DNA from: Sulfurospirillum diekertiae
GTDB taxonomy: Bacteria; Campylobacterota; Campylobacteria; Campylobacterales; Sulfurospirillaceae
Length of the DNA: 64,000 nucleotides
Direction: 5' to 3'
Assembly (NCBI RefSeq): GCF_002309535.1
Contig: NZ_CP023275.1
Span: 1,054,001 to 1,118,000 of the forward strand
Numbering within the stretch: position 1 is the first letter of the stretch; every line of letters begins with the position of its first letter. Positions 22,474 to 25,206 of this stretch are shown here, piece by piece. Both the position numbers and the translations under genes were made by a program. The notes under the pieces are model-generated. The model ran no database searches, had not been told where the DNA came from, and was given only the letters and a program-made list of their open reading frames with translations.

Positions 22474-24672
22474 TTAGCGTGCTAACTGCACGGCTTTTAT
22501 CATGTTGGTTAAAGCGGCTTTAGTTTCACTCCAACCTCTGGTTTTTAAACCGCAATCAGGGTTGATCCAGAGTTGCTCTTTAGGCAAAACTTGCAAGCAT
22601 GCTTTGATCTGCTCGCTCATTTCTTCCACACTCGGTACACGTGGCGAATGGATGTCATACACGCCCGGTCCAATTTGGGCTCTGTAGTTTGCTTTTTGAA
22701 AGACTTTGAGCAGTTTATTGCCACTGCGTGACGTCTCGATGGTGATGACATCGGCGTCCATACGTTCTATCGTGTCGATGATGTCATTGAAGTTGCTGTA
22801 ACACATGTGCGTATGAATCTGTGTTTGATCCCATGCAATCCCTATCGAAGCTTTGAAACTCTCAACCGCCCATTTTTCATACGCTTTGATCTTTTCCTCA
22901 CGTAAAGGATAACCCTCTTTAAATGCCGCTTCATCGACTTGGATGATTTGGATGTCGTGACGTTGCAGTTCATCGACCTCTTCAGAGATCGCATTGGCGA
23001 CTTCAAAAGCTACTTCACTTTTCGGGATGTCATTGCGTACAAATGACCAGTTGAGGATGGTCACAGGGCCTGTAAGCATGCCTTTCATTGGTTTCTCAGT
23101 CAAGCTTTGGGCATACACTGTCCAGTCAACACTAAGGGGCTGTTTGCGACGAACGCTTCCGTATAAAAGCGGTGGCTTGACACAACGGCTCCCGTAACTT
23201 TGAACCCAACCATTTTCACTAAAGGCAAACCCCTCTAAGAGTTCGCCAAAGTACTCGACCATGTCATTGCGTTCAAACTCGCCATGCACCAAGACATCAA
23301 GCCCAAGTGCTTCTTGAAACTCAACGCATGCTTTGATGGACTCTTTAAGCGATGCTTCGTACTGCTCGCATGAAATCTCCCCTTTTTTATAGGTATTACG
23401 TACCGCTCTGGTCTCTTTAGTTTGAGGAAATGAGCCGATGGTCGTAGTAGGAAAAAGCGGCAAATTCAGCGCTTTTTGTTGTAAGGCAAAACGGGTAGCG
23501 TAAGGTGACCTGGTGTAGGCAATGCCACTAGTTTGAAGTGGTGGTACTTTTTGGGTGCATGCACTTATTGTTGGTTTTTCTTTCTTCTCCCAAAGTGTAT
23601 TGAGCTGCTCTAACTCTACTAGTTTTTCAAGGGCAAAGCTGAGACGACTTTTGACTTCAGGAGCTAATTTTTCTTCAAACTTGGTTGAAAAAGGTACATG
23701 TAAAAGCGAGCATGAGGTGGAAAGGATGATATGGTTGTCATCGATTTTTTCGCTGATTTTCTCTAACAATTCATACGTTTTGAAAGCATTGCTTTTCCAA
23801 ACATTGCGCCCATCAATCATGCCAGCAATCAGTATTTTATTGTTTACATGTAAAAGGGCGTCAAGGTTCTCTTCGCCGTACACAAAATCAAGTCCTATCG
23901 CCCAAATAGGGCAATTTCCTAAGATTTCCACCGCTTCATTAGCACGATCAAAATAGGTGACAACCGCGATTTTAAGATTGGGACTCACCACACCTAAACG
24001 CTCATACGCTATTTTTAAAAGGCTGAGGAATTTTGGCTCTAACGTTTTGGCAAAAAGTGGTTCATCAAACTGCACAACGATGTTTTCACCTAAACTTGAA
24101 ATGGCATAAAGCACTTTAACATAGGCTGTCACCACAGCATCAAAAAGGCTGTAAAGATCACTTCCATCGACAGCGTTGGAAAGGAAAAGAAAGGTAAGTG
24201 GTCCTACAAGATTTATTTTTGGATGAACTCCTTGCGCTTTGGCTTCTATAAACTCTTCTGCGATTTTAGAAATGTTCACGTGGGAAAAGTTCATATTCGC
24301 ATGTAGTTCTGGGACAATGTAGTGGTAGTTGGTGTTAAACCATTTGGTCATCTCCATTGCGGCATGGTCATCATCACCCCGTGCCATGGCGAAATAGCAA
24401 TCTATTTTGTCGTCGATATTTTCAAAGCGCGGAGGAATGGCTCCCAGCATAACGGTCGTGTCGAGCATAATGTCGTAGAGACTAAAATCATTGCATGAAA
24501 TAAAGTCGATGTGATGCTCTTTTTGGTAGTTCCAATGGCGATTTTTGAGCGTTTTAGCAACGGATTTGACCGCTTCAAAATCAGTTTTACCCGCCCAATA
24601 GGCTTCTAAAGCAAATTTGAGCTCACGTTTTTCCCCAATGCGTGGGAAGCCTGTAACGTAGGTTTGTGACAT
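22474..24672 (-). CDS. metE: Cobalamin-independent methionine synthase
   Basis: 732-residue cytosolic zinc enzyme that methylates homocysteine with 5-methyltetrahydropteroyltri-glutamate as the last step of methionine synthesis. The N-terminal barrel begins Gly-Phe-Pro-Arg-Ile-Gly; the C-terminal barrel carries Thr-Thr-Thr-Ile-Gly-Ser-Phe-Pro-Gln-Thr, the zinc-ligand histidine and cysteine in His-Met-Cys-Tyr-Ser, and the final cysteine in Asn-Pro-Asp-Cys-Gly-Leu-Lys-Thr-Arg. Slightly shorter than the E. coli enzyme, as usual in this phylum. Two palindrome copies in the gene (23693 partial, 23843 perfect) are read as Leu-His-Val. It has an unusually long leader (see 24673-25158). Confidence 0.95.
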   Translation of the reverse strand: MSQTYVTGFPRIGEKRELKFALEAYWAGKTDFEAVKSVAKTLKNRHWNYQKEHHIDFISCNDFSLYDIMLDTTVMLGAIPPRFENIDDKIDCYFAMARGDDDHAAMEMTKWFNTNYHYIVPELHANMNFSHVNISKIAEEFIEAKAQGVHPKINLVGPLTFLFLSNAVDGSDLYSLFDAVVTAYVKVLYAISSLGENIVVQFDEPLFAKTLEPKFLSLLKIAYERLGVVSPNLKIAVVTYFDRANEAVEILGNCPIWAIGLDFVYGEENLDALLHVNNKILIAGMIDGRNVWKSNAFKTYELLEKISEKIDDNHIILSTSCSLLHVPFSTKFEEKLAPEVKSRLSFALEKLVELEQLNTLWEKKEKPTISACTQKVPPLQTSGIAYTRSPYATRFALQQKALNLPLFPTTTIGSFPQTKETRAVRNTYKKGEISCEQYEASLKESIKACVEFQEALGLDVLVHGEFERNDMVEYFGELLEGFAFSENGWVQSYGSRCVKPPLLYGSVRRKQPLSVDWTVYAQSLTEKPMKGMLTGPVTILNWSFVRNDIPKSEVAFEVANAISEEVDELQRHDIQIIQVDEAAFKEGYPLREEKIKAYEKWAVESFKASIGIAWDQTQIHTHMCYSNFNDIIDTIERMDADVITIETSRSGNKLLKVFQKANYRAQIGPGVYDIHSPRVPSVEEMSEQIKACLQVLPKEQLWINPDCGLKTRGWSETKAALTNMIKAVQLAR
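23843..23854. repeat. 12-bp palindrome TTTACATGTAAA inside metE
   Basis: Perfect copy, read on the minus strand as Leu-His-Val-Asn. Confidence 0.95.
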
Positions 24673-25158
24673 AGTTTTAAGTCCTTAATATCTTTTACAC
24701 ATCAAAAAAGGAGTGCTTTTTTGAGAAAATTAAGCCAGCTTATATGCGTGGCAAAGCTCGGTATTTAGTGGTTGATATAAAGGAAATTGTGGTGGGTGGA
24801 TACCGGTTCGGCGGAAGCTAAAGAAGCGAGAGTGGCAGTTGCATTGACGTCTTTTTTTGGCACGTTTGATGGCAGAGTGGGCGCGCTTTGCAAACAGTCG
24901 ACTACATTTGCAAAGCCTTGGTCGATACGATGAGACAAATCCAAGCAGGGCAGGGCTAAGAGGTGGCGGATCGTCCTCAACGGCTTCTTGGTCACACGTA
25001 TCGGCAAAGAGGTGTGTGGTATGTAGCAAGCGTGCGTGTTGGCGTTTGGTTTTGTATTCAATGGTTGAAGCTTGAATCGAAGCGAGCTTAAAGTAGCCCT
25101 TTTTGCCAAAGCCCAGAGGCAGTCTCACGTGATGTGCGTCCTTAAAGTTGATGGCGGC
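24673..25158 (-). promoter_or_regulatory. Long GC-richer leader of metE, possible regulatory RNA or orphan ORF
   Basis: An extended -10 promoter at 25159-25167 (minus) would start transcription near 25152, giving a leader of about 480 nt before metE. Sampled lines of this stretch count about 48-55 % GC, above the flanks, and stop codons are rare in several frames. One minus-strand frame (24730-25170, TTG start) would encode about 146 residues rich in Arg, Lys, His and Cys, resembling nothing I know. A structured RNA controlling metE fits the position and composition; I could not find the conserved boxes of the cobalamin or SAM riboswitches. Confidence 0.4.
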
Positions 25159-25167
25159 ATTATAGCA
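25159..25167 (-). promoter_or_regulatory. Extended -10 promoter of the metE leader
   Basis: TGCTATAAT on the minus strand, the best sigma-70 match in the metE-htpX divergent region. Confidence 0.6.
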
Positions 25168-25194
25168 CAATAGACTTCTTGCATAATCTAATAG

Positions 25195-25206
25195 TTTACA
25201 TGTAAA
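25195..25206. repeat. 12-bp palindrome TTTACATGTAAA
   Basis: Perfect copy between the divergent metE promoter and the htpX start. Confidence 0.95.

Follow-up and report, generated by a model that had tools for sequence, protein, structure and literature searches.

What is encoded in, or done by, the long leader that precedes metE in Sulfurospirillum diekertiae? In the window (the whole stretch of 64,000 nucleotides that was analysed), metE, which codes for the cobalamin-independent methionine synthase (732 aa; PF01717, E 2.2e-143; PF08267, E 2.7e-112) and is presumed to be the controlled gene, lies at 22474-24672 on the minus strand. The leader is therefore also read on the minus strand, from about 25152 to 24673, i.e. 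over some 480 nt. An earlier note had described such a leader as GC-richer, poor in stop codons in several frames and devoid of a recognised riboswitch, and had proposed that it could be either a divergent or new regulatory RNA or an Arg/Cys-rich protein (24730-25170). The descriptive part of that proposal was borne out. The extended -10 promoter is present: the element TATAAT (25159-25164, minus), contained in TGTGCTATAAT (25159-25169), is invariant in 15 aligned genus sequences, and transcription is expected to start near 25152; TGTGCTATAAT was absent from the output of a simple sigma-70 scan. The GC content is 0.50-0.51 in two central 240-nt segments and 0.42-0.43 in the segments at either end of the leader, and that of the leader ORF is 0.494, as compared with 0.401 for the window. 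Three frames are open over the leader, namely two on the minus strand (146 and 114 aa) and one on the plus strand (72 aa).

Counting the own genome, 21 of the 24 genomes of the genus contain a match to the leader DNA, which is therefore not a chance stretch; in the genus loci where both genes were found, it is flanked by htpX and metE. The Shine-Dalgarno sequence of metE (AAGGA) is at 24682-24686, and an A/U-rich hairpin, TCAAAAAAG-CACTC-CTTTTTTGA, lies between the leader ORF and metE at 24702-24724 (both minus); a similar hairpin was judged by eye to be present in 8 of the 15 aligned genus sequences. The palindrome TTTACATGTAAA, found near the promoter at 25195-25206, occurs at 20 other places in the window (21 copies against 0.02 expected). 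It is highly iterated across the genus, with 14 to 792 copies per genome in the 24 genomes; the own genome has 774, against 0 for the reversed control. Because of these 774 copies, the reading of the palindrome as a metE operator was dropped.

The leader was found to evolve as a protein-coding sequence. The likely start codon is GTG at 25128, preceded by an AAGGA Shine-Dalgarno sequence (25139-25143, minus) to which purine-rich AGGA-type sites correspond in relatives; the resulting ORF (24730-25128, minus, TAA stop, translation checked) encodes a peptide of 132 aa, so that the frame of the earlier note stands, with its likely start shifted. From start to HPP this frame is open in 20 of 20 genus sequences. 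None of the other five frames remains open in more than one of the 20, and they contain totals of 52 to 139 stops. The pN/pS ratio is 0.11-0.32 in 11 comparisons, each made against a sequence identical to that of the window, and the differences at codon positions 1, 2 and 3 amount to 0.21, 0.15 and 0.44 (20 genus sequences), synonymous sites being variable along the whole ORF. Within the genus, identical copies being set apart, the frame 24730-25170 is conserved at 63-89% amino-acid identity; the 114-aa frame reaches 32-72% and the plus-strand frame 43-86%. Such a protein-coding pattern in relatives is what the earlier note had set against its own RNA reading.

A structured RNA, such as a new riboswitch, would be a natural expectation for a long leader of a classic riboswitch target, the more so in a phylum nearly lacking cobalamin riboswitches: under strict filters, RF00174 was found in only 3 of the 394 genomes of the phylum, as against 8 of 14 control genomes, and none was found in the window at gathering score, in the leader by forced search or in the own genome. 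However, no Rfam family reached the gathering score anywhere in the window, and a permissive search of the leader gave forced matches with E values of at least 1.2, i.e. at chance level. In addition, RNAalifold on 15 genus leaders found double-sided change in only 1 of 38 predicted pairs, and the conserved residues use degenerate Gly, Pro and His codons. The Rfam and covariation checks suggested in the earlier note thus went against an RNA; as the leader evolves codon by codon, with its synonymous sites unconstrained, the regulatory-RNA reading is left without support, and we regard it as highly improbable. The leader being a conserved translated peptide, and not a regulatory RNA, is well supported.

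The peptide appears to be built of two modules. Module 1, GFGKKGYFKLASIQA (residues 6-20; 25069-25113, minus), has the consensus GFGKxYFxLxxIxA near the N-terminus. After it comes an acidic patch in which PP is frequent; here, the patch and the first proline run are EDDPPP (residues 51-56; 24961-24978, minus). Module 2 extends from a Cys-x-Cys motif to [RK][TS]G[VI]HPP. The Cys-x-Cys is CKC in this peptide (residues 73-75; 24904-24912, minus), in the place of CHCN in many relatives, and is a candidate ligand or folding site; a second one, CNC (residues 96-98; 24835-24843, minus), includes the nearly invariant C96. The C-terminal motif FRRTGIHPP (residues 105-113; 24790-24816, minus) contains the stall site that we propose, from its sequence, at Pro112-Pro113. 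Across the 16 aligned sequences, C75, F103, F105, R106, R107, G109, H111, P112 and P113 are invariant; these residues concentrate towards the C-terminus and end at PP, beyond which length and sequence vary. The PDB contained no relative of the peptide. The two leaders scanned had no NCBIfam hit and no convincing Pfam match (DUF2946 was unmatched at E values up to 10), with PHROG 8936 (E 0.052) and DUF6559 (E 0.2) as the only hits, both at chance level; the family thus appears to be undescribed.

A family profile was built from 16 sequences. As it ends in HPP, the presence of PP and its position close to the end of the matched ORFs are partly built in, and the following figures should be read with this in mind. 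PP is present in all of the 175 distinct metE leaders, and the residue before the last PP is H in 151, A in 14, S in 7 and P, T or R in one each; the APP leaders inspected read GxAPP. In 137 of the 175, PP is followed by 1-6 residues, and in all but two by at most 33. PP falls inside the last 35 residues in 173 of 175 metE leaders, as compared with 145 of 2120 other ORFs from the same loci, a contrast that the profile favours. The conserved cysteine motif is C-x-C, and the distance from it to the last PP in the 134 metE leaders scored is 37 residues in 110, 34 in 20, 35 in 3 and 39 in 1; in 19 receptor leaders it is 34 in 18 and 35 in 1. A distance of 34-37 residues is about the length of the ribosome exit tunnel, but a scarcity of indels among homologues may give the same constant spacing. 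The leader C-termini of L008, L009 and L021 continue with RQTSKARSTT(L/F)ATMA(L/P)KL..., overlapping metE by 67 nt in L008 and L009; this shared tail may be an inserted repeat.

The two halves of the peptide are lost independently. Three leaders (L059-L061) and the opened leaders of family f3, which probably corresponds to Campylobacteraceae, match in the C-terminal half only, and in four others (L125, L127, L307 and L308) nothing but module 1 and a PP is present.

The profile matched 217 of 397 Campylobacterota genomes, in 48 of 68 genera. A pattern scan of named genomes confirmed 123 relatives, of which 80, including Sulfurospirillum, Arcobacter, Aliarcobacter, Sulfurimonas, Sulfurovum and Sulfuricurvum records, were taken further. 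ORFs shorter than 38 aa or above E 0.01 were excluded, and identical cores were merged to 205; the genome sets overlap. Only part of the profile matches were opened as loci, and the linkage counts hold for these. Among 261 matched ORFs, duplicates included, 209 precede metE, 23 precede another ORF, 21 lie within long ORFs and 8 have no gene in reach; five of the last group have too short a flank (L013, L017, L136, L160 and L198), and one (L158) precedes metE on reading. In nine loci from other genera of the same family, the leader is again found before metE, while the remaining neighbours differ.

The second target class consists of TonB receptors: the distinct leader ORFs number 175 before metE and 21 before receptors. 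Of the 23 leaders with another ORF downstream, 21 precede receptor-like ORFs, one (L127) precedes CbiM with a weak and short match (22.6 bits), and the remaining one is L100. Module 1 is shared by the receptor leaders and by the weak match before cbiM, and some TonB receptors carry it at their N-termini. Among the 21 long ORFs, 19 score as receptors bearing the motif at their own N-terminus; the other two are L118 and L099, the latter a spurious frame that overlies the leader of a receptor. Such receptors (MKNxKGFRGKYFSLAAILA...) are conserved across genera and include one of the own genome (C1 1773611-1775617; L349:10612-12618) as well as L092-L098. In L307 and L308, the last two of the eight ORFs without a gene in reach, the leader overlaps, on reading, the start of the receptor ORF, and in L266, L287 and L297 receptor, leader and metE are consecutive. 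The linkage of the leader in cis to metE and to B12-type receptors is well supported.

Concerning the substrate of these receptors, TonB-B12 (TIGR01779) was the best NCBIfam model for 8 of 10, all below cut-off, while siderophore or hemoglobin models scored better for the receptors of L092 and L306. Among solved structures, the L272 receptor is closest to BtuB, and no close relative was found for the L101 type. When compared with these two as seeds, 5 of the 21 downstream and 5 of the 19 fused receptors are BtuB-like and the rest are of the L101 type, which leaves 16 of the 21 downstream receptors in a class whose substrate is uncertain. In 4 of 12 wider receptor loci (L342, L343, L352 and L353), a BtuF-like protein, an ABC ATPase and a FecCD permease are encoded nearby, L342 being assigned by its likeness to L352 only; btuFDC was not seen in the other eight. 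These transport proteins score as close or closer to heme/siderophore models as to B12 models, all below the cut-offs for named transporters. BluB and CbiB in L352 and CobQ in L343, about 6 kb beyond the receptor, pass curated cut-offs, and CobD, though below cut-off, is the best model. Genes of the btuFCD and cob type, as found near the receptors, are under cobalamin riboswitches elsewhere.

Two further proteins recur in the receptor loci. One, of about 190 aa (like YLWYKLLNSLFFGLAVGSVFVLYTPLEPS), is encoded behind the receptor in L349 (10052-10612), with similar proteins in L344, L345, L346, L347, L351 and L307, loci in which btuFDC was not seen; its L349 copy had no Pfam match at E 1e-5, and it is a candidate inner-membrane partner. 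The other is a Cys-rich protein of about 140 aa (...FCPLYxxxxKCHD...LNCYxCxCPxFRF), present in L352 (11259-11678), L353 (7904-8329), L342, L343, L346 and L347; two copies had no Pfam match, and one of them no NCBIfam match either, at the thresholds used.

The distribution of the family was compared with that of the two methionine synthases. metE was found in 268 of 394 genomes and MetH in 176 of 394, own genome included; it must be considered that 397 genomes were drawn for the profile and 394 for RF00174, metE and MetH, and that exceptions such as G418 (metE locus L110, not among the metE results) may lie outside the search. The family was matched in 126 of 127 genomes with both metE and metH, as compared with 47 of 141 with metE and without metH, any match being counted, receptor fusions included, and kinship being ignored; the sole exception among the former, G174, has a weak metE match only. 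Of the 47 metH-less matched genomes, 42 belong to f3, and in the six of these that were opened the match adjoins metE. In f2, the g6 genomes opened (G048, G057, G065 and G118) carry receptor fusions, and G204 has a metE leader (L107). Among the matches listed, metH is present in 105 of the 109 genomes with a module-1 leader; nevertheless, the rule that module 1 marks B12 users holds one way only and was not adopted, because leaders without module 1 occur both with and without metH. Of 20 leader-less metE loci, 11 belong to another metE lineage (SYPRIG or GYPRIG: L314-L321, L323, L330 and L331), five in f5 sit 30-93 nt behind another gene, and L324 has a divergent HCNC...FPP ORF; nothing leader-like was found in L322 and L332. 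In L333, the last of these 20 loci, an apparent metE-leader remnant lies within 941-1330, consisting of FYFSLRKSGCHPPKF and then a stop, with the upstream half not recognised.

On the strength of these sequence features, we consider it probable (about 60%) that an upstream ORF is translated in the leader and that its nascent chain would control metE in cis, as an arrest peptide of the cobalamin/methionine regulon. The regulatory role assumed in the earlier note would then survive, not as an RNA, but recast as a cis-linked peptide leader with the anatomy of an arrest peptide. Towards the end of the ORF, at [RK][TS]G[VI]HPP, the ribosome would come to a halt, and the Cys-x-Cys, located upstream by 37 (or 34) residues, would then be on the point of leaving the exit tunnel. 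With cobalamin in short supply, the stall would shield the C-rich leader RNA from Rho and/or free the metE start, allowing expression of metE or, in the sister loci, of the receptor and B12 genes. With the signal present, the nascent chain would bind it or fold, and the ribosome would be released and soon reach the stop codon; the downstream gene would then be switched off, termination by Rho, as in cruR, being the most likely route. We infer the stalling, the direction of control, the part of Rho and the cue, cobalamin or cobalamin/cobalt status.

Two lines of evidence bear on the way in which a stall could act. C is more frequent than G in 170 of the 175 metE leaders and in all 21 receptor leaders, as compared with 95 of 458 control windows from other genes; at fourfold sites, C and G are 0.227 and 0.122 in the leaders and 0.193 and 0.151 in metE, and amino-acid content may add to the excess. 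Start finding was passed by 160 of the 175 metE leaders, in which the median gap from PP to metE is 76 nt, and 90 were folded. The unpaired probability of the metE start is 0.37 with the leader and 0.43 with shuffled upstream sequence, the former being the lower in 59 of the 90. Removal of the upstream part gives 0.53, a value without shuffled control. So weak an effect led us to reject sequestration of the ribosome-binding site as the sole mechanism, and the weak masking of the metE start favours a stall that would shield the RNA from Rho when cobalamin is short.

The cue itself is less clear. The 42 metH-less f3 genomes that keep a match (in the six opened, the C-terminal half beside metE) speak against a pure B12 sensor, because cobalamin control of metE makes little sense without metH. 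Further points that count against the favoured reading are the metE leaders without module 1 in other, metH-containing genomes, the eight wide receptor loci in which btuFDC was not seen, the heme or siderophore scores of the transport genes and the uncertain substrate of most downstream receptors. The same nascent-chain mechanism might therefore respond to methionine/SAM, zinc or cobalt. MetE is a zinc enzyme, and metE and B12 uptake both feed methionine synthesis; moreover, the Cys-x-Cys pairs resemble metal-binding sites and the weak leader match before CbiM would fit such a cue. On the other hand, metE is the sole methionine gene seen downstream in the opened loci, which cover a part of the profile matches, and B12-type transport or assembly genes are present in 4 of the 12 wide receptor loci, so that another cue appears rather unlikely. 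The strong conservation of the amino-acid sequence with its Cys pairs could also be expected of an ordinary small protein, i.e. a stable trans-acting partner or regulator travelling with its targets, such as a metal-binding helper of MetE. This appears improbable, considering that the opened loci with sufficient flank yielded no recognisable copy standing on its own (L100, L118, L160 and L198 aside), that the invariant residues are C-terminal and stop at PP, with variable length and sequence after it, and that the halves are lost independently.

If we return to the arrest peptide, the leader family may be a peptide-based stand-in for the B12 riboswitch. The broader idea, which we advance tentatively and at somewhat below even odds, is that in Campylobacterota a sensor made of nascent peptide has taken the place of the cobalamin riboswitch, with one family placed before metE, B12-type receptor operons and perhaps cbiM, which would read cobalamin (or cobalt) at the exit tunnel via GxHPP and switch the B12/methionine regulon. 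If this is true, a vitamin regulon that is elsewhere a showcase of riboswitches would here be run by translated peptides, the repertoire of arrest peptides would be extended both by a new stall motif and, with a cofactor or the metal it contains, by a cue of a new class, and the choice between MetE and MetH in these bacteria would be explained. Every metE leader of the family is a ready test object. No such metE/B12 leader peptide was found in a search of the open-access literature.

Cobalamin riboswitches control metE, btuB, btuFCD, cob genes and cbiM. The targets of RF00174 thus overlap those of the leader family; in contrast, RF00174 is an RNA element, present in 3 of 394 phylum genomes and absent from the own genome under strict filters. 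The metE leader of M. tuberculosis similarly combines a uORF with B12 control, but, according to the available part of the source (PMC11260477), the sensor there is a riboswitch, and none was found here.

The RAPP/RGPP arrest peptides (ApdA, ApdP and uORFs of TonB-related genes), as described in the accessible sections of PMC12992588, are likewise short, have a C-terminal PP and in some cases precede TonB receptors; the present leaders differ in having usually [RK][TS]G[VI]HPP instead of RxPP, and HPP differs from the RAPP/RGPP of the proven arrest peptides. In a word search of that paper, metE, HPP and cobalamin were absent and Campylobacterota appeared once, in a legend. The closest parallel is with CruR (DUF2946), the copper-responsive uORF of 145 residues of Bordetella bfrG. 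In the available part of PMC9426467, its nascent CXXC is described as sensing copper and its stall at RAPP as keeping Rho off an RNA with a C>G bubble; its arrest was demonstrated in vitro, according to the accessible sections of PMC12992588. Like the present leaders, CruR is a translated uORF before a TonB transporter, with a Cys motif at a conserved spacing from a C-terminal PP and with a C>G bubble (PMC9426467, available part), and the spacing is equally conserved here, at 37 or 34 residues in 130 of the 134 scored metE leaders. Unlike CruR, the metE leaders do not match DUF2946 (two leaders scanned), have CxC and not CXXC, end in HPP, APP or SPP and not in RAPP, place the Cys motif 34-37 residues from PP as against 45 intervening residues (PMC9426467, same part), and have metE and B12-type receptors as targets. 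As with arrest peptides in general, the metE leader is a small cis ORF upstream of the gene presumed to be controlled and is conserved as a peptide, and metE leaders carry a stall-like C-terminal motif near the stop (173 of 175 against 145 of 2120, favoured by the profile). A regulatory arrest uORF is of a known kind; what would be new is its motif, its set of targets and the fact that it replaces a riboswitch.
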